This document shows, one piece after another, positions 1,740-21,856 of a DNA stretch of 64,000 nt. The stretch lies in assembly GCF_036030735.1 (NCBI RefSeq), contig NZ_CP107928.1:5208001-5272000 (forward strand). The letters run 5' to 3'. How positions within the stretch are numbered: position 1 is the stretch's first letter; each line of letters starts with the position of its first letter. Under the pieces are notes generated by a model that saw only the letters and a program-made list of their open reading frames with translations, did no database searches and was not told the DNA's origin. A program made the translations under genes and the position numbers. The DNA comes from Streptomyces sp. NBC_00425 (lineage in GTDB: Bacteria; Actinomycetota; Actinomycetes; Streptomycetales; Streptomycetaceae).

Positions 1740-1991
1740 CGGAAACGCAAGACCGAAGGGAAACTGCCCGGAGGAAAGCCCGAGAGGGTGAGTACGAAGG
1801 AAGCGTCCGTTCCTTGAGAACTCAACAGCGTGCCAAAAATCAACGCCAGATATGTTGATACCCCGTCCCCGGCAGTGATAGCCGAGGATGAGGTTCCTTT
1901 GAAACAAACACAGCGAGGACGTTGTGAACGCCGGGCTTATTCCGCTCGACGTTCCGCTCTCGTGTGTGCGATCCCGATCACGGGAAAACAT
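1740..1991 (+). other. rrn leader region
   Basis: No gene. This is the transcribed leader between the last promoter and the mature 16S end. It holds a TTGAGAACTCAACAGCGTG segment (1814-1832) that is typical of streptomycete rrn leaders and is also echoed before 23S (TTTGAGAACTGCACAGTG), consistent with an antitermination/processing element. Confidence 0.6.
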
Positions 1992-6953
<4,962 letters not shown>

Positions 6954-7044
6954 TCAGTTGCTCGCGTCCACTGTGTTGGTTCTGAAACCACGAACAGCCC
7001 CACACCATGGTCACGGTGTGGTGCGGCTGAAACAGTTTCATAGT

Positions 7045-7161
7045 GTTTCGGTGGTCATAGCGTGAGGGAAACGCCCGGTTACATTCCGAACCCGGAAGCT
7101 AAGCCTCACAGCGCCGATGGTACTGCAGGGGGGACCCTGTGGGAGAGTAGGACACCGCCGA
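7045..7161 (+). rRNA. 5S ribosomal RNA
   Basis: The 117-base segment from GTTTCGGTGGTCATAGCG to GACACCGCCGAA has the paired 5'/3' ends (CGGTGGT / ACACCGCCG) and the conserved loop CCGAACCCGGAAGCTAAG. It follows 23S by about 90 bases, as in other actinobacterial rrn operons. Confidence 0.97.
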
Positions 7162-7173
7162 ACAATCATTGCG

Positions 7174-7205
7174 AAAACCCCCGTGCCATTCGGCACGGGG
7201 GTTTT
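7174..7205 (+). terminator. rrn operon terminator
   Basis: Perfect 14-bp stem AAAACCCCCGTGCC / GGCACGGGGGTTTT with loop ATTC, ending in a T run. A strong intrinsic terminator directly after 5S. Confidence 0.92.
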
Positions 7206-7244
7206 CTGCGTTTAAAAGGCATTTCCGAGCCGGTGCCCAGGCGC

Positions 7245-7250
7245 TACTGT
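7245..7250 (+). promoter_or_regulatory. -10 box of a leaderless promoter
   Basis: TACTGT ends seven bases before the ATG at 7258 with no ribosome binding site between, so the transcript probably begins at the start codon itself. It lies only 40 bases after the rrn terminator. Confidence 0.5.
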
Positions 7251-7257
7251 GCTTTGC

Positions 7258-7821
7258 ATGTACACGTATGTGGTTCGGGTGGTGCGGCCGGAGGAGTGGG
7301 CCTCGGTCAAGGCGCTGCGGTTGCTCGCGCTTGAGGATCCGGCGGCGCCGCTCGCCTTTCTGGAGACGTACGAGACGGCTGCGGCTCGGCCGGACTCGTT
7401 CTGGCAGGAGCGGGCCGCCGGCGCGGCCGAGGGATCCACCGGGGCACGGCAGTACATCGCCGAGGCGGAGGACGGGCAGTGGGCGGGGACGGTCACCGTG
7501 CTCGTGGAGGAGGCGGGCAGCGTCGACTGGGCCGGCCACCCCGTCGAGCGGTCGCAGGGGCATGTCGTCGGGGTCTTCGTGCGGAAGGAATGGCGGGGAA
7601 GCGGGATGTTGCAGGCGCTTCTCGACGCCGCCGCGGACTGGGCCTGGGAGCTGGGGCTGGAACGGGTGCGGCTCATCGTGCACGAGCGGAACCTGCGGGC
7701 TCAGGGGGCGTACCGCAAGGCGGGGTTCGTGCCGACCGGGCGGACCGTGCTGCTGGGCGAGGAGTCCCAGGAGAACGAGTACGAGTTCGCCCTCGAGCGT
7801 CCCGGGGCGTCAGACCGGTAG
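7258..7821 (+). CDS. GNAT family N-acetyltransferase
   Basis: A 187-residue GCN5-related acetyltransferase. The acetyl-CoA binding region is clear: HVVGVFVRKEWRGSGMLQAL (motif A, V-x-x-x-x-R-G-x-G-x-x) at about residues 101-120, followed by LGLERVRLIVHERNLRAQGAYRKAGF (motif B, N-x-x-A-x-x-x-Y-x-K-x-G-F). It transfers an acetyl group to an amine; the substrate is not identifiable. The ATG is preferred because a -10 box sits seven bases before it; a GTG at 7249 would add three residues. Its 3' end overlaps the convergent VirD4-like gene by 12 bases. Confidence 0.85.
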   Translation: MYTYVVRVVRPEEWASVKALRLLALEDPAAPLAFLETYETAAARPDSFWQERAAGAAEGSTGARQYIAEAEDGQWAGTVTVLVEEAGSVDWAGHPVERSQGHVVGVFVRKEWRGSGMLQALLDAAADWAWELGLERVRLIVHERNLRAQGAYRKAGFVPTGRTVLLGEESQENEYEFALERPGASDR

Positions 7822-9366
7822 TTCGTGGTGCGGCCAGCGGGCCCTGGCCTGTTCGCGGGAGCGCAGAAGAGCCAGGGTGGGCAGGCCCCGGTCCGTTCCG
7901 GTGGACAGAAGGTCCGGGAGCTGAGGGATCGGGGCCACGGCCGCCACATCGTCGAGGACGAGGGTCAGTGGTGGGTCGAGGCGACCGGAGGATGACCGTT
8001 CGGCCATGCGCCGGCCGCGCTCGACCACGCTGGAGACGAGGGCCGTCAGGAGGGGCATGGCGCCGGGACTGGTCCTGGGGTCCTCGAGAGATTCACCGAG
8101 CACATAAAGAGTGCCCCCTTCGTCGACGAAGGAATCCAAGGCGAGGGCATCAGTTCGGTTGGGAGTGCACGCCTCGCGGATGTTCACCGTGGAGAGGGCG
8201 GAGAGGGCACGGGCCGTCAGTTCCTGGGCGATGTCCCGGCGTTCGGGATGGGCGGTCAGGGCGGCTTCGAGCTCGCCGGCCGCACCCGGTGCGGCCTTGG
8301 GGTTCGTGCGCAGGGCGCGGACCGCTTCCTGGACGCCGGTGCCCTGGGACCAGCGGTGGACGTGGCGGACCGTGCGGCCGTCGATGGCCGCGGCGTGGAG
8401 ATAGCTGCGGAGCAGGGTCTCGGCCGTCTCGGCCACCGCCTGGTCGAGGCGGGCCGTGGGGCGCACGGGCATGAGGAGCGCCGCTGCGCGGGAGGCCGCT
8501 GTCGGTCTGTCCTCGCAGCCGGCAGTGGGGGACCAGTGGAGGCGGGCCGGGGTGTCGCAGCGGTGAGCCGGGTCGTAGAGGTGGACCGGGCCCAGCTTGG
8601 CTCGGCCGTCCTTGGTGTCCTGCCAGAGGGCGGGGTCGGAGGTGAGGACGAGGGCCGGGCCCTCGGCGTCCCGGACGGCCTGGGAGGCGAGCGTGAACCG
8701 GGCGGCGGGGGGCGCGTAGTGGACCGTCCCGCCTTCGGAGCGGGAGGGCATCCAGCCGTGGGCGGGCGTCAGGACGGCGTCGTCGGGCTGCGGCAGCTCG
8801 GCCGTAGAGGGCGGGGGCGGGGACGGGGAGGCCGTCACGGTCTGCCGGTCCGCCGGCGGGACGGCCGAGGCGACGGACTGCGTCCGCGGGGCCGGCTCGG
8901 TCGCCTCCGTGCGGGGGGTGGGCACCTCGTGGTGCTGGGGCTCCGGGGCGTACACGGGGGCCGTCCGGTCTGCCCGTCGGTGTGCGCGTACCGCCCGCCA
9001 GCGGGCCAGCGTGCCCATCACGAACACCGTGAGCACGAGCAGGACCATCAACTGGCCGATGAGCAGGCCCCAGAAGAGGCCGTAGCCGGAGAACTGCGCG
9101 GCGTCCGCGTCGGGCCACGCGCCGGGGACGTCGTGGGGCGCGGCGATGAGGTGGCGCATGGCCAGGGGGGTGCGCGTGAAGGTGACCCCGGACGGCCAGG
9201 AACCGTGGGCGAGGAGGGCCGACAGTCCGGTGGCCGTCCAGACGAGGAGCGTCATGCCGAGCAGGAAGGCCAGTATGCCGACGAGCAGGCCGTCGGGGAT
9301 GCCTTCCTGCCCGGCGCCCCGGCCGGAGCCGTGGCTGTCGTGGCGATGCTCGTCACCCGGTCTCAT
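7810..9366 (-). CDS. VirD4/TraG-like type IV coupling protein, degenerate
   Basis: 518 residues. Two N-terminal membrane helices (about 25-48 and 85-108) are followed by a Pro-rich linker and a soluble domain. The region ALVLTSDPALWQ...RAKLGPVHLYDP matches the strand after Walker A in actinobacterial TraD/VirD4 proteins, and LTLVLDDVAAVAPIPQLPDLL matches the Walker B segment (usually LDEAANIAPLPDLP), followed by DRGLPTLALLRSREQARARW. No G-x-x-x-x-G-K-[ST] loop is present; PSRSEGGTVHY stands where it should be. So it is probably a coupling-protein relative that does not hydrolyse ATP. ATG at 9366, 14 bases after the ATPase gene: last gene of the six-gene cluster. Confidence 0.7.
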   Translation of the reverse strand: MRPGDEHRHDSHGSGRGAGQEGIPDGLLVGILAFLLGMTLLVWTATGLSALLAHGSWPSGVTFTRTPLAMRHLIAAPHDVPGAWPDADAAQFSGYGLFWGLLIGQLMVLLVLTVFVMGTLARWRAVRAHRRADRTAPVYAPEPQHHEVPTPRTEATEPAPRTQSVASAVPPADRQTVTASPSPPPPSTAELPQPDDAVLTPAHGWMPSRSEGGTVHYAPPAARFTLASQAVRDAEGPALVLTSDPALWQDTKDGRAKLGPVHLYDPAHRCDTPARLHWSPTAGCEDRPTAASRAAALLMPVRPTARLDQAVAETAETLLRSYLHAAAIDGRTVRHVHRWSQGTGVQEAVRALRTNPKAAPGAAGELEAALTAHPERRDIAQELTARALSALSTVNIREACTPNRTDALALDSFVDEGGTLYVLGESLEDPRTSPGAMPLLTALVSSVVERGRRMAERSSSGRLDPPLTLVLDDVAAVAPIPQLPDLLSTGTDRGLPTLALLRSREQARARWPHHELPV

Positions 9367-9380
9367 GACCACCCCGCCCT

Positions 9381-10808
9381 CTACGCCACCGTCGACTCGG
9401 ACGAGCCGTCCAGGTCGGTGATGTGCTGTTCCATGAAGGCCGCCGCCCGCCGTTCCTGTTCCAGCTCGGCGGCGAGCAGCGCGTCGTCTTCGGCGATGCG
9501 GTCGGCGGAGGACTCCGTCATCGCGCGGTCGGTGAAGACCAGCGGGCGTTCCGTCTCCGTGACCAGGTGTTTGACGACCTGGACGTTGCCGTTGACGTCC
9601 CACACGGCGATGCCCGGGGTGAGGGTCGGGATGATCTCCACGGCCCAGCGGGGCAGGCCCAGAACTCGGCCGGTCGCTCTCGCCTCGTCCGTCTTCTGGG
9701 CGTAGATCGTCCTGGTGGAGGCCATCTTGAGGATGGCGGAGGCCTCTTTCGCCGCCGCTCCGTCCACCACGTCGGACAGGTGGTGGACGACGGCCACGAA
9801 GGACAGGCCGAGTCGGCGGCCGAACTTCAGCAGCCGCTGGAAGAGCTGGGCCACGAACGGGCTGCTGATGATGTGCCAGGCCTCCTCGACCAGGAAGATG
9901 CGCTTCTTCCGGTCGGGGCGGATCCAGGTGTGTTCCAGCCAGACCCCGACGATCGCCATCAGGATCGGCATGGCGATCGAGTTGCGGTCGATGTGGGACA
10001 GGTCGAACACGATCAGCGGGGCGTCCAGGTCGATGCCGACCGTCGTCGGGCCGTCGAACATGCCGCGCAGGTCGCCGTCGACCAGGCGGTCCAGGACCAG
10101 GGCGACGTCCAGACCCCAGGCCCGCACATCGTCTATGGCGACGTTCATCGCCTCCGCCGACTCCGGTTCGGGGTGGCGCAGTTGTTCGACGATGTCGGTG
10201 AGGACCGGCTGGCGTTCGACGATCGTCTCGTTGACGTAGGCGTGGGCGACCTTGAGCGCGAAGCCGGAGCGCTCGTCGAGGCCGTGGCCCATCGCCACCT
10301 CGATGATCGTGCGCAGCAGCGCGAGCTGGCCCGTCGTGGTGATCGACGGGTCCAGGGGGTTGAGGCGGATCCCCATGTCCAGGGCGGCCATCGGGTCCAG
10401 GCGGATGGGGGTTATTCCCAGCGCCTGCGCGATGAGGTTCCATTCGCCGACGCCGTCCTCGCCCTGGGCGTCCAGGACGACGACCTGACGGTCGCGGAAA
10501 CGGAGCTGGCGCAGGACGTAGGTCTTCTCCAGGGCCGATTTGCCGTTGCCGGACTCGCCGAGGACGAGCCAGTGCGGGGCGGGCAGCTGCTGGCCGTACA
10601 GCTGGAAGGGGTCGTAGATGTAGCCCTTCCCGGAGTAGACCTCGCGGCCGATGATGACGCCGGAGTCGCCGAGGCCGGGGGCGGCCGTGGGGAGGTAGAC
10701 CGCCTGGGCCTGGCCGGTGGAGGTGCGGACCGGAAGGCGGGTCGTCTCCACCTTGCCGAACAGGAAGGACGTGAAGGCGTCGGTGAGGACGGACATCGGG
10801 TCCCGCAT
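9381..10808 (-). CDS. VirB4 C-terminal-type ATPase of type IV secretion-like cluster
   Basis: 475-residue soluble P-loop ATPase. Walker A is GESGNGKSALEKT (about residues 83-95); Walker B is RIFLVEEAWHII (about residue 298), the V-E-E-A-W-H form seen in VirB4/TraE/TcpF ATPases rather than the DEA form of VirD4. FMDG-like and VVHHLSDV segments follow the family order. It lacks the usual 300-residue N-terminal domain of VirB4, which appears instead to be carried by the upstream gene. ATG 10808 has GTAGGGG six bases upstream; a Met four codons in is an alternative. Lies 9 bases after the upstream stop. Expected to power substrate or subunit movement at the membrane. Confidence 0.8.
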   Translation of the reverse strand: MRDPMSVLTDAFTSFLFGKVETTRLPVRTSTGQAQAVYLPTAAPGLGDSGVIIGREVYSGKGYIYDPFQLYGQQLPAPHWLVLGESGNGKSALEKTYVLRQLRFRDRQVVVLDAQGEDGVGEWNLIAQALGITPIRLDPMAALDMGIRLNPLDPSITTTGQLALLRTIIEVAMGHGLDERSGFALKVAHAYVNETIVERQPVLTDIVEQLRHPEPESAEAMNVAIDDVRAWGLDVALVLDRLVDGDLRGMFDGPTTVGIDLDAPLIVFDLSHIDRNSIAMPILMAIVGVWLEHTWIRPDRKKRIFLVEEAWHIISSPFVAQLFQRLLKFGRRLGLSFVAVVHHLSDVVDGAAAKEASAILKMASTRTIYAQKTDEARATGRVLGLPRWAVEIIPTLTPGIAVWDVNGNVQVVKHLVTETERPLVFTDRAMTESSADRIAEDDALLAAELEQERRAAAFMEQHITDLDGSSESTVA

Positions 10809-10817
10809 GTGAAGCCC

Positions 10818-12377
10818 CTACCTTCGGATTCCGGTGGCGAACGGGAGGGTGTTCACGAACGCACGGTGATGCTCCCGGTCGCACCACTCCAGCTTCAGGT
10901 ACGACTTGCCGGCCGACGCCCTGATCGTCCGCTTGTCGCGGGCGAGGGCCTCGGGGTTGCGGGAGGAGACCGTGATGTAGCCGACCAGGTTCACGCCGGC
11001 CGCGCCGGACGCCAGGTCCTCGCCGCGCTGGTCGAGACGGGAGTGGGCGGCGACGTCACGCGGGTCGACGGTGCGGTTCATCTTGGCGGCGCGGCTGGCC
11101 TCCGCCTCGTCGTTCGTCTTCTCCGTCAGCATGCGCTCGATGGCGACCTCGGTGGGTTCGAGGTCCATCGTGACGGCGACCGTGCGGATGACGTCCGGGG
11201 TGTGGACCAGCAGGGGAGCCAGGAAGTTGACGCCGACCGGGGTCATCGGCCACTCCTTCACCCAGGCCGTGGCGTGGCACCAGGGGGCGCGGGTGGACGA
11301 CTCGCGGGTCTTCGCCTGGAGGTACGTCGGCTCCATGGCGTCCAGCTCGGCCGGCCAGGCGTTGCGCCTGGTCATCGCCTGGATGTGGTCGATGGGGTGG
11401 TCCGGGTCGTACATGGAGTGGACGAGGGAGGACAGCCGGCCCTGGCCGAGCGGCTGGCGGACGCGGATGTCCGCCTCCTGCAGGCGTGAGCAGATGTCCG
11501 TCAGTTCCCGGGCCATGACGACGGCGAGGCCGGCGTCGCGGTCCAGCTTGCGGCCCGACCGGGGGTGGGCGGCGCGGGCCATCGCGTGGGCCTCGGCGGC
11601 CAGTTCGCGGGTGTAGTGCATACAGGCGACGAGGTAGGCGCGGTGCTGCTCGCTGCTGGTGGACACCATGGACTGGAGCTGGTCGTAGGAGCGGGCCAGC
11701 CAGTCGGGGGACTTCTCGTCCCCGCGGACGGCGACGTCCTTGGCGTGGGCGTCGGGGTCGGCGGGGAGGGTGCGGGCGAGTATCTGCAGCCGGGTGACGA
11801 AGCCGTCGCCGTTGGCCACGTGCTTGAGCAGGGTGCCGAAGCGGTCGACGAGGGCTTCCTGGTCCTCGCTGTCGCGCAGGCCGACGCCCGGGCCCTCGAT
11901 CTCGATGGCGGCGGTCACCGTGCGCCGGTCCGCGTGCAGGAGGACGGCGATCTCGTCGGGTCCGAAGGGTGCGGCCAGCCAGCTGATGCGGCCGATGCCC
12001 GGCGGGGGCCCGACCTCGATCTCCTGGCCGTCCAGGCGGGTGCCGGCCTCCGAGGCCGTCGAGCGGTATGTGGTGCCGCGGCGGAGGGTGCGCTTGTAGC
12101 TGCGGTTGATCTCGAACCACTTGTAGAACGTGCGGTGCTTGTACGGCACGTACACCGCGGCCAGCGCGACCATGGGGAAGCCGCTCAGCAGGACGATGCG
12201 CAGGGCGAGGACGGGGACGAGGAGGCCGCACATCATGCCGAGGAACGCGCCGATGACGATGAGCGCGATCTCGCCGGACTCGCGGTTGCGGCCGACGATC
12301 GCGTTCGGCCGGGCGCGGCCGATCAGATAAGTACGGCGGGGCGTGACCGCGTGGGACACGTGGGAATCAGTCGTCAA
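10818..12377 (-). CDS. SCO6880-family membrane protein (PrgI plus VirB4 N-domain-like)
   Basis: 519 residues. Two adjacent helices (IALIVIGAFLGMMCGLLVPV and RIVLLSGFPMVALAAVYV, about 37-78) form a PrgI/TcpE-like hairpin, followed by a soluble domain of about 430 residues (RISWLAAPFGPDEIAVLLHA..., MTPVGVNFLAPLLV...) with no nucleotide-binding motif. Actinobacterial annotation calls this the SCO6880 family. Together with the next gene it resembles a VirB4 split in two. The start is TTG, decided by GGAGGTGA six bases upstream; TTG overlaps the previous stop (TTGA), so translation is coupled. Confidence 0.72.
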   Translation of the reverse strand: MTTDSHVSHAVTPRRTYLIGRARPNAIVGRNRESGEIALIVIGAFLGMMCGLLVPVLALRIVLLSGFPMVALAAVYVPYKHRTFYKWFEINRSYKRTLRRGTTYRSTASEAGTRLDGQEIEVGPPPGIGRISWLAAPFGPDEIAVLLHADRRTVTAAIEIEGPGVGLRDSEDQEALVDRFGTLLKHVANGDGFVTRLQILARTLPADPDAHAKDVAVRGDEKSPDWLARSYDQLQSMVSTSSEQHRAYLVACMHYTRELAAEAHAMARAAHPRSGRKLDRDAGLAVVMARELTDICSRLQEADIRVRQPLGQGRLSSLVHSMYDPDHPIDHIQAMTRRNAWPAELDAMEPTYLQAKTRESSTRAPWCHATAWVKEWPMTPVGVNFLAPLLVHTPDVIRTVAVTMDLEPTEVAIERMLTEKTNDEAEASRAAKMNRTVDPRDVAAHSRLDQRGEDLASGAAGVNLVGYITVSSRNPEALARDKRTIRASAGKSYLKLEWCDREHHRAFVNTLPFATGIRR

Positions 12378-13699
12378 CGCCCTTCACCTCCCGTGCGGTT
12401 GTTGCTGCTGTTTCGGGTGTTGCCTGCGTGCGGGGTGTTGACGGGGCTGCTCGCGCGGGGCGCGGGTGCGGCGGAGGGGACAGATCCGCCGCCCCCGTTC
12501 GAGGTGCGCGAGCTGTGTGCGGCGACCCCGCCGGACACCGGGTTGGCCGGGCGGCCCCCGGAGGACCCGGACGAGCCGCCGTTGTCCGCGCGGGTGCTGT
12601 GCGTCTTGATGCCCTGGGCGACCAGGTTCGCCGGGGAACTGATGACGGCGGCGGCCTTGCCCTCGGCTCCCTGCATGATGCGGTTGTTGCGGCCGTTCGC
12701 GATCTCGTCGCCGAAGCCGGGGACGAAGCGGTAGATCATCGCGCTGGCGAAGATGGCGAGCAGGATGATGGAGAGGCCGGAGACGACGGCGGAGAAGGAG
12801 TCCGGTCCGTCGGCGGAGGACAGCGCTCCGGCAAGGCCGAGCACTATCACGATGACCGGTTTGACGAGGATGACGGCGATCATGATGCCGGCCCAGCGGC
12901 GGACGTGGCTCCACAGGTTCTTGTCGACCAGGCCCGCGTAGACGACCGTGCCGAGCAGCGCGCCCACGTAGAGCAGGGCGGCCCGGATGACGAGCTCCAG
13001 CCACAGCACGCCGGCGGCGAGGATCGACACCAGGGACACGACGATCAGCATGATCGGGCCGCCGCCGATGTTCTCGCCCTTGGCGAGGGCCTGCGAGAAG
13101 GTGCCGAAGAACGTGTCGGTCTGGTTGCCGGTCGTCTTGGCGAGGACGTCCGTGATGCCGTCCGTGGCGGAGACGACGGTGTAGAGGACGAGGGGGGTGA
13201 AGGCGGAGGCCAGGACCGTCAGCCAGAGGAACCCGACGGCTTCGCCGATGGCGGTGGTCAGGGGCACTCCGCGTACCGCCCGCTTGGCGACGGCCAGCAG
13301 CCACAGCAGCAGCGTCAGGACCGTCGAGGCGGCGAAGACGACGGCGTACTGCTTGAGGAACCGCTCGTTGGTGAAGTCGACGTTCGCCGTGTCCTTCACG
13401 GCGGCGCTGAGCTTGTCGACGGTCCAGGAGGCGGCGTCGGCGCAGCCCTTGGCGAGGGAGGAGAGGGGGTCGAGCGTGTCGGAGACGCCGGGGTTGGTGG
13501 TGGAGGAGTCCCCGTTGCCCCTCTCGCAGTACTTCTTGGCCTCGCCGGGGATGAGACTGCAGTCGAGGGTGCCGGACGGCGCGGGTGTCGGAGTGGGCGA
13601 CGGGGCCGCGAAGGCGTGGGTGGCCAGCAGCACGGCCGAGGTCTGGACGGCTGTCACGACTCCGGCGAGCCGGAGCAGGCGGCGCGGCTTACCGGGCAT
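12374..13699 (-). CDS. VirB6/TrbL-like polytopic membrane protein
   Basis: 441 residues: an N-terminal signal-like helix (LAGVVTAVQTSAVLLATHAFA), a short extracytoplasmic part with a Cys pair (LDCSLIPGEAKKYC), then about six membrane helices between residues 115 and 345, and a Ser/Gly/Asn-rich hydrophilic tail of about 90 residues. The layout (amphipathic stretch, multiple helices, disordered tail) is that of VirB6/TrbL/TcpH channel components. ATG 13699 is preceded by GGAGGG; it overlaps the upstream stop by 11 bases. Family assignment rests on layout and context, not on a diagnostic motif. Confidence 0.65.
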   Translation of the reverse strand: MPGKPRRLLRLAGVVTAVQTSAVLLATHAFAAPSPTPTPAPSGTLDCSLIPGEAKKYCERGNGDSSTTNPGVSDTLDPLSSLAKGCADAASWTVDKLSAAVKDTANVDFTNERFLKQYAVVFAASTVLTLLLWLLAVAKRAVRGVPLTTAIGEAVGFLWLTVLASAFTPLVLYTVVSATDGITDVLAKTTGNQTDTFFGTFSQALAKGENIGGGPIMLIVVSLVSILAAGVLWLELVIRAALLYVGALLGTVVYAGLVDKNLWSHVRRWAGIMIAVILVKPVIVIVLGLAGALSSADGPDSFSAVVSGLSIILLAIFASAMIYRFVPGFGDEIANGRNNRIMQGAEGKAAAVISSPANLVAQGIKTHSTRADNGGSSGSSGGRPANPVSGGVAAHSSRTSNGGGGSVPSAAPAPRASSPVNTPHAGNTRNSSNNRTGGEGR

Positions 13700-14537
13700 A
13701 CGTGAACCCTCCGTACTCCTCGATGGCCTTGCTGATCTCGTCGGACGTGGCGGCGGCATCGTCGCCGGGGACCGGCGCGGGGCCGTCCTGCTGTGTGTCG
13801 TGCACGATCTTCCAGTCGCCGTCGGTCCACTGGAGGTCGAAGGTCCAGGTCTTCCACGACGAGGTGACCGGGTCGGTGGAGGTCGTCCCGGACATGCCGA
13901 TGAGGCCCAGGTACCAGACGGCGACCTTGGCGCTCGCGGCGGAGTAGGACTGGGCGGTCGTGCCCACCGGCACCACGCGCGAGACGAAGGTGTCGCCCTG
14001 CGGTGCGTTGCCGTCGGCGTCGAGGCCCATCCTCGCGAGGAAGTCGGTCGAGTACGCCTGATCCATCGGGGCCTTCAGAGCGGCCGCTGCGGTGGCGGTG
14101 TAGACCGTGTCGACGAGGTCGTGCCGGCTGTCCTCCTGGAACATGCCGGTCGAGCCCAGGGCCACCGCGAAGTTGGCGGCGGCCGACTCCGCTCCCTGCT
14201 TGGTGTGGGCGAAGCCCGAGGGGATGCCGCCCGTCTTCGACTGCACCGGCTTCGTGCCCGTGGGGGTCGTGCTGGTGGCGTTCGGCTTGTCGCCGCCCGT
14301 CGGAGCGGACGACCCGGAAGAGGAATCGTCTCCTCCACGGTTCGCGAAGGCGATCGCCGCGATCAGCACGACGACGACGCCGACCACCGTCACCATGCTG
14401 CGAGAGGGGCCGCGCGCGCCTCTGCGGGCTCCGCCGTAGGGGTCGTCCTCGGGCAGCCGGAGGCGTGTTCCGCCGTAGCGGTGGCCCTCGTCGGTGCGCG
14501 TGGGTTCGCCGTAGTCGTTCTCGTCGCCGGGAGTCAT
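13689..14537 (-). CDS. Single-pass protein, TcpC/VirB8-like
   Basis: 282 residues: acidic N-terminal 45 residues inside, one membrane helix (SMVTVVGVVVVLIAAIAFA, about 46-64), a Ser/Thr/Gly linker, then an extracytoplasmic domain of about 170 residues with the alternating helix/strand pattern and the W-x-x-W-T-F-D-L-Q-W-x-D-G-D-W-K-I ending typical of NTF2-like folds. That topology matches VirB8 and the Gram-positive TcpC scaffold proteins. Start ATG 14537 follows GAGGGGG. Second gene of the cluster, overlapping the next by 11 bases. Confidence 0.65.
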   Translation of the reverse strand: MTPGDENDYGEPTRTDEGHRYGGTRLRLPEDDPYGGARRGARGPSRSMVTVVGVVVVLIAAIAFANRGGDDSSSGSSAPTGGDKPNATSTTPTGTKPVQSKTGGIPSGFAHTKQGAESAAANFAVALGSTGMFQEDSRHDLVDTVYTATAAAALKAPMDQAYSTDFLARMGLDADGNAPQGDTFVSRVVPVGTTAQSYSAASAKVAVWYLGLIGMSGTTSTDPVTSSWKTWTFDLQWTDGDWKIVHDTQQDGPAPVPGDDAAATSDEISKAIEEYGGFTYAR

Positions 14538-14737
14538 GCCGGGTACGCCCCCTCGTTGCCGTACCGGAACGCGTAGCAGTACGACGGTAGCCGTGCTGGT
14601 TCCCGCGCGGGCGCGGTGTGGTGACTCGACATCAGGGACATCAGGGAAACGCAACCTCAGCCGGTGGGCACGACAGGTGGGTGGGGACGGGGGGCCGGGC
14701 GTGCCCGGACGGGACTGGGGGTGCTGCGGGGCCGCAG

Positions 14738-15046
14738 CTACACCGCCATGCCGTACACGATCGTGAACAGCGTCCCCAGGGAACCGATGATGAAGACGCC
14801 TGTCAGCCCGGCGATGATGAGGCCCTTGCCCTGTTCCGCACTGAAGGTGTCCCGCAGGGCCGTCGCGCCGATGCGCTGTTTGGCCGCGCCCCAGATGGCG
14901 ATGCCGAGGCAGAGGAGGATGGCGACCGCCATCACGACCTCGATCATCACCTTCGCCTCGTTGCCCAGGCTGCCGAAGGGCCCCCAGTCGGGAGCGATCC
15001 CGCCGATGATGGTGTTGATGTCGCCCTTGTCGGCCGCGAACAGCAT
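14738..15046 (-). CDS. Small two-helix membrane protein, first gene of the cluster
   Basis: 102 residues with two long membrane helices (about 32-55, VMIEVVMAVAILLCLGIAIW, and 74-97, GLIIAGLTGVFIIGSLGTLF) joined by a basic loop. Size and topology resemble VirB2/TrbC pilin-type or holin-like subunits that sit at the head of Gram-positive conjugation clusters, but there is no signature residue. ATG at 15046 with GGGGCGG/GGTGA upstream; GTG at 15055 would add three residues. About 200 bases separate it from the next gene, so it may also be expressed on its own, at higher level. Confidence 0.6.
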   Translation of the reverse strand: MLFAADKGDINTIIGGIAPDWGPFGSLGNEAKVMIEVVMAVAILLCLGIAIWGAAKQRIGATALRDTFSAEQGKGLIIAGLTGVFIIGSLGTLFTIVYGMAV

Positions 15047-15332
15047 GTAAGTCACCGCCCCTGGTGGGTAGTTCCGCCGCCCTCTGCCGGTGTGCAGAGG
15101 TCACGTCTCATTCTCGCCGACAAAGTCGCCGTCGTATGTCGACTTGGCGTCATTGACAGGCGGGATTCGTACGAATAGCTCGTATGGTCACTCTGTGTAT
15201 CACGGCAGGTCACGCCGGGCAACGAGGCCGGAGCGGAACCTGTGGTGTGGTTCCGTCGTTAGCCCACTTCACGGCCCTGTGCGGTTTCTGACGGCCGGTC
15301 GGGTGAGCGTACGTTTCGATGTTCTCACGAGG
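15047..15332. promoter_or_regulatory. Upstream region of the secretion-like cluster with a perfect palindrome
   Basis: No convincing gene. It must hold the minus-strand promoter of the six-gene cluster. A perfect 12-base palindrome ATTCGTACGAAT lies at 15165-15176 in a locally AT-rich patch about 120 bases before the first start codon, a plausible operator. A plus-strand TTGACA at 15153 has no gene to serve. Confidence 0.45.
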
Positions 15333-15377
15333 AAGGGCGAACGGGCCGCGGCTGGGTGCCGCGGCCCGTTCGCCCTT
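15333..15377. terminator. Strong hairpin terminator after the S53 peptidase
   Basis: 20-bp perfect stem (15333-15352 with 15358-15377) around the loop TGGGT, flanked by A and T runs. It lies downstream of the minus-strand peptidase gene and shields the secretion-like cluster from read-through. Confidence 0.85.
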
Positions 15378-15434
15378 TCGCCACGGGTGGCCCCCACGGC
15401 CCACTGTGGCTGATCGGTGTGACGGGAGGTCAGG

Positions 15435-16775
15435 TCATCCGGTGAAGGCGTCCGTCCCCTCGGGGGTGCCGAGGCCGGTGGGGCCGTCGTAGCCGGAGCG
15501 GGCGGTGCAGAGGTAGGACGCGCTGGAGGAGCAGGTGCCGTTGCTGCCGCTGGTGACGTCGTTCAGGGCGGAGGTGCCGGCGGCCGCGTAGGGGTACGAG
15601 GCCGGGTAGTCGCTGCTGCCGGGGGTGCCGGCGAGGGCGTAGACGGCGGCGATGATGGGCGAGGAGGCGCTGGTGCCGCCGAAGGTGTACCAGCCGGCGG
15701 TGACGCCGTAGGAGTCGTAGACGGAGACGCCGGTCGCCGGGTCGGCCACGGCCGAGACGTCGGAGACGGTGCGCTTGGCGCAGCCGGTGTCGGTCTGCCA
15801 GGTCGGCTTGGCGTCGTAGGCGGAGCAGCCGGAGCCGGTGCCCTCGGTGGAGCTGGTGTTCCAGACCTTCTCGGTCCAGCCGCGGGAGTTCGAGGACGTG
15901 GACAGGGCGGTGCCGCCGACGGACGTCACGTACCTGGAGGCGGCCGGGTACTCGGCCCCGTAGCCCTCGTCGCCCGCGCTGACGGTGATGGCGACGCCGG
16001 CGTGCTTGAAGTACGAGGTGTCGTACGAGGTGTCCGAGGAGGACTCGGAGCCGCCGTAGCTGTTGGACACGAACTTCGCGCCCAGCGTGACGGCCTCGTT
16101 CACGGCCTTGCCGAGGTTGGTCATGGAGGCGGAGGTCGCCTCGACGAGCAGGATCTTGCAGTTCGGGCAGACCGCGCTGGCCATGTCGAGGTCGAGGGAC
16201 TCCTCCTCGGCCCAGCCGCTGTCGGCGGAGGGCAGCGAGGTCGTCGAGCCGGTCTGGCTCACCTTCTTGAAGCAGCCGCTCGCCACCGTGCAGGCGGGGA
16301 GGCCGTAGTAGGAGCGGTACTTGGCGAGGTCGGCGGCTGCGTTCGGGTCGTCGTACGCGTCGACGATGGCGATGGTCTCGCCGGAGCCGTTGCTGGAGGC
16401 GGCGTCGGCCAGGCCGTAGGCGTCCTGGAGGTCGGACGGCCCGTAGCCGGTGGGGGACGCGGCGGCCGCCTTCGGGGTGACGCCGGCGGTCCGGCCGGTG
16501 TCGGCGGCGCGTTCCTTCTGGAAGGCGGTGGTGCCGCCGGTGACGCGGAAGGAGTTGCAGGTCAGGTCGCCCTTGTGCTTGGGGGTGGCACAGGGGGTGG
16601 CCGCCCAGGTGACCTTCGAGGACGTCGTCTTGGCGGTGGTGGCGGGCGCCGCGCTCGCCTGGGCCGCGGTGCCGAGTCCGGCGAGCACGAGGGCGGCGGC
16701 GCCGAGGACGGAGGCGCCGGCGCGGCGGCGTCGGCCGGATCTGGCGGGGGAGGCGGGGGAAGTCGTCGTACGCAA
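15435..16775 (-). CDS. Secreted S53 family (sedolisin) serine peptidase
   Basis: 446 residues. A twin-arginine-like basic N-terminus and hydrophobic helix (VLGAAALVLAGLGTAAQASA) export it. The S53 catalytic set is visible: Glu/Asp in EEESLDLD (about residue 192), the oxyanion Asp in SAGDEG (about 268) and the nucleophile in GGTSASSP (about 370). The pro-domain seen in classical sedolisins is short here, about 60 residues. Start is TTG at 16775, decided by AGGAG eight bases upstream; no ATG or GTG is well placed. It degrades extracellular protein, usually at low pH in this family. A strong terminator follows. Confidence 0.85.
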   Translation of the reverse strand: MRTTTSPASPARSGRRRRAGASVLGAAALVLAGLGTAAQASAAPATTAKTTSSKVTWAATPCATPKHKGDLTCNSFRVTGGTTAFQKERAADTGRTAGVTPKAAAASPTGYGPSDLQDAYGLADAASSNGSGETIAIVDAYDDPNAAADLAKYRSYYGLPACTVASGCFKKVSQTGSTTSLPSADSGWAEEESLDLDMASAVCPNCKILLVEATSASMTNLGKAVNEAVTLGAKFVSNSYGGSESSSDTSYDTSYFKHAGVAITVSAGDEGYGAEYPAASRYVTSVGGTALSTSSNSRGWTEKVWNTSSTEGTGSGCSAYDAKPTWQTDTGCAKRTVSDVSAVADPATGVSVYDSYGVTAGWYTFGGTSASSPIIAAVYALAGTPGSSDYPASYPYAAAGTSALNDVTSGSNGTCSSSASYLCTARSGYDGPTGLGTPEGTDAFTG

Positions 16776-16883
16776 CGGACAGCTCCTGATGATGGGGTGA
16801 CAGGGGCGGTGCGGGTGGGGGGTGATGCGTGCCACCGGTACGTGGTCTCCGGAGGCGGGCGGCGGCCCACGACGACTGTTCCT

Positions 16884-16904
16884 TTGTTGAGTACGCGACA
16901 ACAA
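16884..16904. promoter_or_regulatory. Inverted repeat upstream of the S53 peptidase
   Basis: TTGTTG and CAACAA flank nine bases about 110 bases before the peptidase start. The rest of the 16776-17337 gap holds no gene: near 16992-17040 CACTTGACC and GGTCAAGTG form a second inverted repeat, and 17100-17200 is a run of G tracts. Any operator role is a guess. Confidence 0.35.
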
Positions 16905-17337
16905 GATGCCTGGCGGAATCCTGACTTCCGCCATACCGGAGGGGGCGGGTGATTGCTGATCAATGGCGGGGGGATGGTGCGGCGATGGCCGTCACTTGAC
17001 CTCCGGTGACCTCAGGTGGCCTCCGGTGCGGTCAAGTGGCTTCGGTGTGGCGGGACTTCGACTTGCATGGTGTCGCCGGCCGCGCGCGGATGCGGGCGGG
17101 TCGGGGGCGGCGGGCGGGCCGGCTGGCCGGGGGGCCGGGGTTGGGCGGGCCGGGGGCCGGCGGGTGACGTCGAGCCGGGGGTGACGCCGGGCGGGGTGAG
17201 GAGTGCGTCCCGGGCAGGTCTGTGCTGCCGTCCAGGGGGCATCCGTACGGGAGAGCGAAGGAGGAACGATTGTGCGAGCCGAGTGCGGGTAGCGTCGGAA
17301 GTGCTATCTGTCGCTTCTCTCACCTTCGTGGGACACA

Positions 17338-18102
17338 GTGGATCCGATGAACCGAAAAGCGCTGCTCGGTGCGGTCGTGCTGCTGGCCGTCACCTCCGCC
17401 TCCGAGGCGGCCGCCGACGGGGGCCCCGGGCCCCTGGGGGTGACGGCCGTGGCCGCGTCGACGCCGCAGTCCGCGAAGGTCGGCGCGCTGTTCGCGGCGG
17501 ACGACGCGGACGCCGGCAGGCTGGCCGGCCGGCACGTCTGCACGGCGTCCGTGGTGCACAGCCCGCACCGCGATCTCATCGTCACGGCGGCGCACTGTCT
17601 GCTCGACGCAGGCGACGTGGCGTTCGTCCCCGGCTACCGGGACGGCGAGGCCCCCTACGGCGTCTGGAAGGTCGCGAAGGTCTTCCTGCCCGACGGGTGG
17701 ACGCGAGGGCAGGACGAGGACAGCGACGTGGCGTTCGCCACGCTCGAGGAGCAGGACGGCGAGGGCGTCGAGGACGTGGTCGGCGGCAACCGGTTCGCCC
17801 CGGGCACCGCCACGGGAGCCACGGCCGTGACCGTCACGGGATACCCCAATGCCGCTGAGGCGCCGATCCGGTGCGTGAACAAGCCCACCGCCCACACCGG
17901 CACCCAGCAGCGCATAGCCTGCCCCGGCTTCTCCGGCGGCACCAGCGGCAGCCCGTGGGTGAACGGCTACGGCGAGGTCGTCGGCATACTGGGCGGTCAC
18001 GAGCAGGGCGGATCCACGGACGACGTCTCGTACAGCGTGGTCCTGGGACCGGAGGCCGCGCAGCTGTACCGGGAGGCGGCCTCCGATTCCCAGGAGCCCT
18101 AG
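17338..18102 (+). CDS. Secreted trypsin-like (S1) serine protease
   Basis: 254 residues with a Sec signal (KALLGAVVLLAVTSASEAAA). The catalytic triad is clear: His in VTAAHCL (about 85), Asp in DEDSDVAFATL (about 131), Ser in GGTSGSPWV (about 205). Cys pairs near His (HVC...AAHC) and before Ser (RIACPG) suit a chymotrypsin fold. It resembles the small extracellular streptomycete S1 peptidases. GTG 17338 is used; ATG 17347 is possible and would drop three residues. Its stop overlaps the convergent carbonic anhydrase stop in the palindrome CTAG. Confidence 0.85.
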   Translation: MDPMNRKALLGAVVLLAVTSASEAAADGGPGPLGVTAVAASTPQSAKVGALFAADDADAGRLAGRHVCTASVVHSPHRDLIVTAAHCLLDAGDVAFVPGYRDGEAPYGVWKVAKVFLPDGWTRGQDEDSDVAFATLEEQDGEGVEDVVGGNRFAPGTATGATAVTVTGYPNAAEAPIRCVNKPTAHTGTQQRIACPGFSGGTSGSPWVNGYGEVVGILGGHEQGGSTDDVSYSVVLGPEAAQLYREAASDSQEP

Positions 18103-18872
18103 GCGATGGGGTGCACGAGCTGGGTGGTGAGCTCGTAGCGGGCGCCGACGACGGCCAGCTCGCCGGCCGAGATCTTCGCGGCGAGGTCGGGCTCGGCGGC
18201 GAGATGTGAGCGGACGGCTCGTATGTTGGCGTCGACGGTCGAGTCGACGCGGGCGTCGCCGGTCTTCGTGCGGTCGATGGACGGGGATATCCGGTCCGCC
18301 AGATACTGGATGTGAGCGGGCAGCCGCTCACCGGTCAGATCCGCCTGCACCGCGGCCTTCACCGCGCCGCACGACTGGTGCCCGAGCACCATGACCAGCG
18401 GTATCCCCAGTTCCAGCACTCCGTAGGCCACGCTGCCGAGAACGGCCTCGTCGAGCACCTCGCCCGCGCTGCGAACGGTCATCAGGTCACCGAGACCCTG
18501 GTCGAACACCAGCTCGGGCGGCACGCGCGAGTCGATGCAGCCGAGGACCACGGCGAAGGGCTGCTGCCCTGCCGTCAGGCTTGTCCGGACCGCGGGCGTC
18601 TCGTCCGGATGGCGCTCGCAGTAGGTGCGCCAGCGCCGGTTGCCCGCGGCGAGTTCCCGCAGCGCACCGTCGGCGGTGGTGGGCCGGGGCGCGGCGGCGC
18701 GCGGGGTGCCGCCGCGCGAAGCGGTCGCGCGAGGAGCGGCGGAGGCGGGGGCCGCGGCGAGGGCGAGGCCGCCCAGGGTCGCCGTGCCTGCGAGGCCGCG
18801 CAGCAGCGCGCGACGGGCGGTGGCGGCCGGAGGGTGCTGGACGGATCTGTGGGGGATGCCTTCAGGATTCAC
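18099..18872 (-). CDS. Exported beta-class carbonic anhydrase
   Basis: 257 residues. The zinc set of beta carbonic anhydrases is complete: C-x-D-S-R in LGCIDSRVPPE, and H-x-x-C in LGHQSCGAV, with the dyad Asp/Arg in CIDSR. It interconverts CO2 and bicarbonate. The N-terminus (TARRALLRGLAGTATLGGLALAAAPASA) is a twin-arginine type signal, so it works outside the membrane, unlike most family members. The GTG at 18872 is likely; it has no ribosome binding site but a TACGTT box lies seven bases before it, so it may be leaderless. ATG starts further upstream cannot be excluded. Confidence 0.85.
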   Translation of the reverse strand: MNPEGIPHRSVQHPPAATARRALLRGLAGTATLGGLALAAAPASAAPRATASRGGTPRAAAPRPTTADGALRELAAGNRRWRTYCERHPDETPAVRTSLTAGQQPFAVVLGCIDSRVPPELVFDQGLGDLMTVRSAGEVLDEAVLGSVAYGVLELGIPLVMVLGHQSCGAVKAAVQADLTGERLPAHIQYLADRISPSIDRTKTGDARVDSTVDANIRAVRSHLAAEPDLAAKISAGELAVVGARYELTTQLVHPIA

Positions 18873-20854: not shown

Positions 20855-21856
20855 GTGCGTAAGGCGTGGCTCCTGACGGCTGCCCTTGCCGGGGCGGGGC
20901 TCAGCTTCGTGATGCTTCTCGTCGTCGGCGTGTACGTCGTCGCAGGGAACATCGTCAACGGCGTGGGCGGCAAGAGCGTAGGTCTGGCCAAGGGGGCCGT
21001 GCCGGCTGCGTACCAGGCGCTCGTGCAGAAGTGGGGAAACCACTGCCCCGCGATCAATCCCGCGCTGCTCGCCGCGCAGCTGTACCAGGAGAGCGGATTC
21101 AACCCCAACGCCAAGAGTCCGGCGAAGGCGGAGGGAATAGCTCAGTTCATCCCCGGAACGTGGGCCACGCACGGCGTCGACGGCGACGGCGACGGCGACC
21201 GTGACGTCTGGGATCCGAATGACGCGATTCCATCGGCGGCCGCGTACGACTGCCAGCTCGCCTCGTACGTCAAGACCGTCCCGGGAAACATCACGCACAA
21301 CATGCTCGCCGCCTACAACGCGGGACCGGACGCGGTCATCAAATACGGGGGTGTGCCCCCGTACAGCGAGACCCGAACGTACGTGAAGACGATCACGACG
21401 CTCGAGAAGTCCTTTGCTGCTCCTGTTTCTCGGGTGGATCCGTCCAAGCAGGCCGCGGGGGCCATCTACTTTGCGCAGAAGAAGCTCGGCACGCCTTATC
21501 TGTGGGGTGGGAACGGCACCGCTGATCAGGGAGGACGGTTCGACTGCTCCGGGCTGACCAAGGCCGCCTACGAGAGCGTCGGGATCACCCTGCCCCGGGT
21601 CGCCAACGATCAGTACAACGCCGGGCCGCATCCGAAGCGGAGCGAGCTGCTGCCGGGGGACCTGGTGTTCTTCTCCACCGATCTCAACAACTCGCGGGCC
21701 ATCCACCACGTCGGGATGTACGTGGGCGGCGGGTACATGATCGACGCGCCCTACACGGGGGCCGTCATCCGGTTCGACCCCATCGACACCGCTGAGTACT
21801 TCGGAGCCACCCGGGTCACCGAAGATGGCGCGAAAGCGCTCCCGACGAGGGTGTGA
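20855..21856 (+). CDS. Membrane-anchored lytic transglycosylase plus NlpC/P60 endopeptidase
   Basis: 333 residues. One N-terminal membrane helix (LTAALAGAGLSFVMLLVVGVYVV), then an SLT lysozyme-like domain with catalytic Glu in LYQESGFNP (about 79), GIAQFIPGTW and MLAAYNAGP, then an NlpC/P60 domain with Cys in GRFDCSGLTK (about 230), His in AIHHVGMYVGGG (about 284). It cuts both glycan strands and peptide stems of peptidoglycan. This pairing on one polypeptide is the usual wall hydrolase of Gram-positive type IV secretion systems. GTG start chosen for GAGGGGCGG upstream; a TTG six bases earlier is possible. It follows the kinase by 43 bases, perhaps cotranscribed. Confidence 0.85.
   Translation: MRKAWLLTAALAGAGLSFVMLLVVGVYVVAGNIVNGVGGKSVGLAKGAVPAAYQALVQKWGNHCPAINPALLAAQLYQESGFNPNAKSPAKAEGIAQFIPGTWATHGVDGDGDGDRDVWDPNDAIPSAAAYDCQLASYVKTVPGNITHNMLAAYNAGPDAVIKYGGVPPYSETRTYVKTITTLEKSFAAPVSRVDPSKQAAGAIYFAQKKLGTPYLWGGNGTADQGGRFDCSGLTKAAYESVGITLPRVANDQYNAGPHPKRSELLPGDLVFFSTDLNNSRAIHHVGMYVGGGYMIDAPYTGAVIRFDPIDTAEYFGATRVTEDGAKALPTRV

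Follow-up and report, generated by a model that had tools for sequence, protein, structure and literature searches.

The stretch of DNA analysed here, called the window in the following, comprises 64,000 nucleotides of Streptomyces sp. NBC_00425 (positions 5,208,001-5,272,000 of contig NZ_CP107928.1, a single-contig genome of 9.8 Mb) and carries six minus-strand genes at 7810-15046, confirmed by open reading frame (ORF) calls on the window (Table 1). Four of the five gene junctions overlap or are at most 15 bases wide, and the cmdF-cmdE gap spans 200 bases. A preliminary description of this stretch, which had outlined a mostly tightly packed six-gene cluster resembling a type IV secretion system (T4SS), is borne out in this respect. 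The cluster is the Streptomyces cmdABCDEF operon (SCO4126-4131), because gene number, gene order and the ATPase match: six co-directional genes are present in the order A to F, with the VirB4-like CmdB in second place. The two cmdB mutagenesis primers from the literature both find their best site within the window cmdB, at 3 mismatches against 8 for the runner-up. Of these primers, the one named K404A covers the Walker A lysine, residue 90 in the window protein, and the one named K90A covers residue 413; the two published labels look swapped, and either way the Walker lysine is among the two residues changed. Compared by gene order, ATPase and primers, no difference from the S. coelicolor operon was found.

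Table 1. Features of the cmd locus (positions are those of the window)
Feature	Position	Strand	Basis
cmdF-like, 102 aa, two predicted membrane helices	14738-15046	-	two hydrophobic segments
cmdE-like, 282 aa, one membrane helix, outside stalk, predicted VirB8-fold (NTF2-like) domain	13689-14537	-	predicted structure
cmdD-like, 441 aa, polytopic VirB6/TrbL-like membrane protein	12374-13699	-	seven hydrophobic segments, weak profiles
cmdC-like, 519 aa, SCO6880 family, two membrane helices and large cytoplasmic part	10818-12377	-	profile
cmdB-like, 475 aa, VirB4-type ATPase, Walker A and B intact	9381-10808	-	profiles, published primers
cmdA-like, 518 aa, VirD4-like, without Walker A GK or Walker B glutamate, C-terminally short	7810-9366	-	
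tgdA-like (ORF from 20720), SLT transglycosylase and NlpC/P60 peptidase	20855-21856	+	Pfam
conserved block TTGCCC ... CGTGATACACAG upstream of cmdF, probable promoter	15192-15222	-	alignment

Locus and loss phenotype are already known. SCO4126-4131 of S. coelicolor were named cmdABCDEF and knocked out in 2009, and the cmd genes are co-transcribed (PMC2782261). Deletion of cmdB or of the whole operon delayed aerial growth and sporulation and led to aberrant branching and uneven chromosomes, the share of anucleate spores being 8% and 6%, respectively; deletion of cmdA caused no apparent defect, and cmd defects were also seen in S. lividans and S. avermitilis (PMC2782261). CmdB is situated at the membrane, lysine mutants of CmdB fail to complement, and the authors noted the similarity to VirB4 and suggested a type IV-like channel (PMC2782261). 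In a transposon screen, cmdBCDEF, not cmdA, were among the peaks raising actinorhodin, tgdA (SCO4132) mutants reached the same actinorhodin level, and TgdA and CmdBCDEF were reported to take part in aerial hyphae formation (PMC6585502). One of the functions previously considered for the cluster, participation in hyphal growth or sporulation, is thus published for the S. coelicolor, S. avermitilis and S. lividans orthologues (PMC2782261), not for the present strain. New here are the VirB8 fold of CmdE, the intact VirB4 ATPase motifs of CmdB, the decay of CmdA, the absence of the mobility genes searched for, the proposal concerning TgdA, the placement in trees and the Frankiaceae cluster; in the portions available, the 2009 report on S. 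coelicolor cmd mentions neither a loss of CmdA motifs nor a partnership with tgdA (PMC2782261).

The Walker A (GESGNGKS) and Walker B (LVEEAW) motifs of CmdB are both intact, and profile searches matched the protein to AAA_10 (3.8e-13) and to the VirB4 structure 4ag5 (3.7e-6), so that its earlier assignment as a VirB4-type ATPase is upheld. CmdB is present in 121 of 121 Streptomycetaceae genomes from 17 genera, in 119 of them at 82-100% identity; in G121 and G168 it occurs in two fragments, the N-terminal fragment of G168 being 56% identical. This conservation is far beyond chance. The median ratio of nonsynonymous to synonymous substitution rates (dN/dS; 406 pairs from 29 Streptomyces loci) amounts to 0.062 for cmdB versus 0.359 for cmdA, and such a value indicates strong purifying selection on cmdB.

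In the whole genome, a single AAA_10 (VirB4-type) match was found. Two relaxase families were searched genome-wide, and neither TrwC nor PF03432 gave a match. No Phage_integrase match is located within 300 kb, the nearest being ~316 kb off, and the only Recombinase match is 1.3 Mb away. No att-like repeats were detected in 7164-18500, where all repeats are at most 35 nt long and 70-89% alike. Within this scope, the absence of a relaxase, and of an integrase or att-like repeat nearby, agrees with what had been noted before, and the cluster as a fixed chromosomal T4SS-like machine without relaxase (two families) or element borders is supported.

For CmdA, the preliminary description of a VirD4-like protein stands as to kinship and fails as to a working ATPase. 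CmdA matches TraG-D_C at 1.3e-4, just over the cut-off, and a profile built from 17 relatives, comprising CmdA and mobile VirD4 proteins, matches TrwB (1e9r) at 3e-14. In an alignment which does not include the plasmid loci L136, L137, L139, and L140, the Walker A GK is absent from all 17 Streptomycetaceae CmdA copies with a C-terminal domain (window included), and in the same 17 copies the Walker B glutamate is replaced by D, N or Q; both features are retained by 10 of 10 mobile VirD4 relatives. Among the best 120 of 3834 CmdA database matches, these 120 all being close relatives, GxxxxGK[STG] occurs in none and D takes the place of the Walker B glutamate in all. Furthermore, the window CmdA stops ~100 residues short of the end of the plasmid proteins, only an N-terminal part of CmdA was found at L072 and L075, and no CmdA was found at the locus in case of L084 and L085. 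CmdA was matched in 101 of the 121 Streptomycetaceae genomes, some of these matches being weak or given by a paralogue elsewhere, and in 101 of 101 Streptomyces genomes. All 20 genomes without a match belong to one genus (27 sampled), and its other seven gave weak matches (E 6.6e-38 or worse).

Judged by its sequence, CmdA appears to be a decayed VirD4 without a working coupling ATPase. Given its dN/dS of 0.359 and the genomes without a match, cmdA is under loose constraint and can be lost, which agrees with the published defect-free cmdA deletion (PMC2782261). Dating of the decay by sister taxa failed. G221, the one non-Streptomycetaceae carrier listed with more than 50% identity (CmdB 78%), is unsuited, since its contig ends at cmdB; it is the sole sampled genome of its order and a draft of ~970 contigs with 6% contamination.

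Residues about 100-252 of CmdE form a VirB8-fold (NTF2-like) domain in the predicted structure, which supports the VirB8 role previously proposed; the CmdE profile found no match by sequence in the PDB, and the kinship came from the fold. For CmdD, a VirB6-like role is consistent with topology and with weak profile matches: CmdD matches SCO6881_fam at 9e-7, under the family cut-off, and a plasmid homologue matches TrbL_4 at 1.9e-4, under the curated cut-off, a match that the window CmdD itself does not give. In case of CmdC, which matches SCO6880_fam at 5.1e-53, the proposed PrgI/VirB4-N-like role can be kept tentatively, as PrgI is weakly matched by 12 of 35 CmdC-family members (best 0.066) and not by the window protein. 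The CmdC model has a predicted local distance difference test (pLDDT) score of 42.8, too poor for structural assignment; the best three PDB matches of this model are chains of the R388 inner-membrane complex (E 0.42) and were not used as proof. EccE of type VII secretion (PF11203) was matched by 17 of the 35 CmdC-family members (best 1.2e-5), L095:7315-8817 lying just over the cut-off and the window CmdC giving no EccE match. A link between parts of the type IV and type VII secretion systems via the CmdC family is possible.

The most conserved of the six genes is cmdF, with a dN/dS of about 0 to 0.016 in three pairs, and it was found in 18 of 18 Streptomycetaceae loci with a stretch reaching its place. 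This count and those for TgdA below leave out L086 (no cmdF in the stretch) and L087 (contig ends inside cmdE). By topology only, CmdF may be assigned a VirB2/PrgF-like role; its comparison with DUF6112 was weak (hhalign probability 17%). At L086, two 5S rRNA matches, one situated upstream of cmdE at a distance of ~20 bases and one where the contig begins, point to either a rearrangement or an assembly error.

A seventh candidate component, a VirB1-type hydrolase, is encoded outside the six genes and was missing from the preliminary description. The window hydrolase matches NLPC_P60 (1.1e-24) and SLT (3.9e-16) in Pfam and is located ~5.8 kb from cmdF in divergent orientation. In 14 of 14 non-Streptomyces Streptomycetaceae loci holding cmdF, a homologue lies divergently at 229-575 bases from cmdF; the distance is 192 bases in L110 and 2.7 kb in Streptomyces L091. 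Both domains were confirmed by Pfam in all eight neighbour hydrolases scanned, two more proteins in that scan (from L089 and L091) being other genes. The window hydrolase is homologous, with 47-51% identity, to the plasmid-encoded 'bifunctional lytic transglycosylase/C40 family peptidase' of L136-L138. It is apparently TgdA (SCO4132). We propose TgdA as the VirB1 of the cmd machine because the gene adjoins cmdF in relatives, because SCO4132 directly follows the cmdF locus number, and because the reported mutant phenotypes match. No statement to this effect was found in the open-licence literature, where tgdA surfaced only in the 2019 screen.

Trees were calculated for the CmdB and CmdC families, that of CmdB with 44 rows selected among the loci analysed, of which 15 are cmd, 12 are Frankiaceae and 17 are mobile. 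In the CmdB tree, cmd forms one clade (98/98) and the Frankiaceae another (100/100) among other elements; cmd is placed beside L033, L034, and L111 (two plasmids and one Streptomyces contig), with 88/89 for the joining branch. The CmdC tree recovers both clades (97/97 and 100/99). Approximately unbiased (AU) tests rejected cmd and Frankiaceae as one clade for both families (p-AU 3e-22 for CmdB and 2e-37 for CmdC), and with it a single shared domestication; these values are subject to long branches and to a hypothesis tested after the first tree was known.

The linear plasmid clusters L033 and L034 and the MOBF plasmids L136 and L137 share the gene order of cmd, i.e., small protein, VirB8-, VirB6-, SCO6880-, VirB4-, and VirD4-like genes. 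Unlike CmdA, the VirD4 of L033 and L034 retains its Walker motifs, and cmd differs from these clusters in its chromosomal location and its own clade. L136, L139, and L140 carry hydrolase, cluster, VirD4-like gene, and a mobF relaxase; VirD4 adjoins mobF in L032, and the type assigned to L137 is MOBF. In the stretches examined, L033 and L034 have no annotated relaxase, and an M23 peptidase takes the place of the SLT protein. In L138, a plasmid of Streptomyces sp. NBC_00005, an FtsK/SpoIIIE gene adjoins the hydrolase, with no VirD4 match in the 25 kb examined; a double-stranded DNA pump may here be coupled to a T4SS channel.

A related cluster is widespread among the Frankiaceae. The 34 loci (L092-L101 and L112-L135) comprise 24 named ones in Frankia, Parafrankia, Pseudofrankia, and Protofrankia and 10 more, at least four contigs being counted twice. 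Homologues of cmdE-D-C-B are present in most of them, and a related hydrolase in 14 of the 24 named loci. The cluster differs from cmd by its separate clade, by its own small protein, a DUF6112 member, and by an altered Walker A: the VirB4 motif reads GxxxxRKS in 34 of 34 loci, with Walker B intact. A VirD4 match was obtained at none of the 34 loci, and in 5 of 12 Frankiaceae genomes the VirD4 profile matched nowhere. Already in 2008, three Frankia strains were reported to share a single conserved VirB4-like gene, its closest resemblance being to a Streptomyces protein (PMC2266912). At L095 the cluster is located beside egtABCD-like (ergothioneine) genes, neighbours which recur in other loci, and in the neighbourhood of L095 and L098 a nuclease-related-domain (NERD) protein is encoded on the opposite strand.

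In the window, a complete rRNA operon (1991-7163) flanks the cmd cluster on one side. Past cmdF, genes for a trypsin-like protease, a carbonic anhydrase, and a protein kinase precede the wall hydrolase; a secreted serine-protease-like protein is also encoded there by our own reading, with no Pfam match. The conserved block upstream of cmdF, of which the GTGATACACA part is identical in 10 of 10 aligned Streptomycetaceae loci, is probably the cmdF promoter. In a bldA mutant, SCO4131 is recorded among the genes that are down (PMC2000904). The idea of a BldD-like site in front of cmdF was dropped, as this site is broken in other genera.

Taken together, we presume with a probability of about 0.65 that cmd is a domesticated conjugative T4SS, fixed in Streptomycetaceae chromosomes and working without relaxase or coupling ATPase. 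Kept would be TgdA (VirB1-like), CmdE (VirB8-fold), CmdD (VirB6-like), CmdC, CmdB (VirB4), and CmdF; the relaxase would be gone, and CmdA no longer has its ATPase motifs and is largely or entirely missing in some genera. In aerial hyphae or at the septa of these hyphae, hydrolysis by CmdB may build or drive a complex that spans the envelope, for which TgdA may open the wall locally. The outcome might be a structure, possibly made of CmdF; alternatively, the machine might move material arriving by another route. The intact VirB4 ATPase, the VirB8-fold protein and the wall hydrolase are jointly conserved. As the coupling ATPase is, judged by sequence, inactive or else missing, and no relaxase of the two families was found, one-step VirD4-driven export is unlikely. 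Several observations weigh against this reading in part. A lysine is left at the Walker A place in 5 of the 17 CmdA copies (L078, L080, L081, L083, and L086), where the glycine before it is missing. The Streptomyces loci L088-L090 showed no TgdA-like gene within the stretch examined. In 7 of the 12 Frankiaceae genomes, the VirD4 profile matches elsewhere, which makes a coupling protein in trans conceivable. Finally, some CmdB match was obtained in 175 of 394 genomes of the class survey, and among the matches listed only Streptomycetaceae and G221 exceed 50% identity; cmd is therefore not a general actinobacterial sporulation machine.

Compared to the minimal Gram-positive T4SS (VirB1, B3, B4, B6, B8, D4), cmd has the hydrolase, VirB4, and the VirB8 fold, as well as candidates for VirB6 and VirB3. 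It differs in a VirD4 that is absent or, by its motifs, inactive, in the lack of a relaxase of the families searched, and in a published role of its relatives in development, not transfer. Gram-negative T4SSs of the two-step export, pilus, and DNA-uptake types likewise do without VirD4 (PMC12857230); these span two membranes, whereas cmd occurs in a single-membrane bacterium, with a dead VirD4 relic in most genera.

An alternative, which we consider unlikely, is that Cmd assists a pump for double-stranded DNA of the FtsK/TraB type, which would act at sporulation septa and replace VirD4. The anucleate spores and uneven chromosomes of the mutants and the chromosome or plasmid translocation proposed by the 2009 authors (PMC2782261) would fit such a role, as would the FtsK/SpoIIIE gene of plasmid cluster L138; however, the defects begin in aerial growth and branching, so that segregation errors may be secondary, and transfer of an SLP2-type plasmid was unchanged upon loss of cmd (PMC2782261). 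Equally improbable in our estimate is a two-step export, in which cargo would cross the membrane via Sec or Tat and the Cmd complex would then let it through or release it. Gram-negatives are known to have systems of this kind (PMC12857230), and channel-type parts and hydrolase are retained in cmd without an active coupling ATPase; against this reading speak the lack of a known cargo and the fact that Streptomyces cells have no outer membrane to cross. A decaying mobile element without host function, i.e., a defective integrative and conjugative element (ICE), is highly improbable, although every part has plasmid or ICE relatives, cmdA decays, and a survey scored one defective ICE mid-chromosome in all its strains that could be this locus (PMC9513070), since for cmdB-F it is refuted by the published deletion phenotypes (PMC2782261), the presence of CmdB in all 121 genomes and the purifying selection on cmdB, and no Phage_integrase match lies within 300 kb; for cmdA it may still apply.

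Returning to domestication, it is tempting to speculate, in a wider claim that we regard as rather doubtful, that in filamentous actinobacteria a conjugation machine became a cell organ twice, independently in Streptomycetaceae and in Frankiaceae, with the coupling ATPase silenced or missing from the locus and the wall hydrolase and the VirB8-, VirB6-, CmdC- and VirB4-type parts kept, and that VirB4 alone builds an envelope structure, perhaps of the nearly invariant CmdF, in reproductive hyphae. If true, this would define a class of coupling-protein-free T4SSs in single-membrane bacteria, for which the Frankiaceae offer an independently derived counterpart for comparison. In Streptomyces itself, cmd and tgdA, which had been described as development loci independently of each other, are joined into one candidate machine. 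A T4SS that is apparently unable to conjugate, has a clear published loss phenotype and occurs in a Gram-positive genus that is easy to manipulate lets the question of what VirB4 and its channel can achieve without VirD4 be tested directly, and provides a test case for roles of DNA-transfer machines besides moving DNA.

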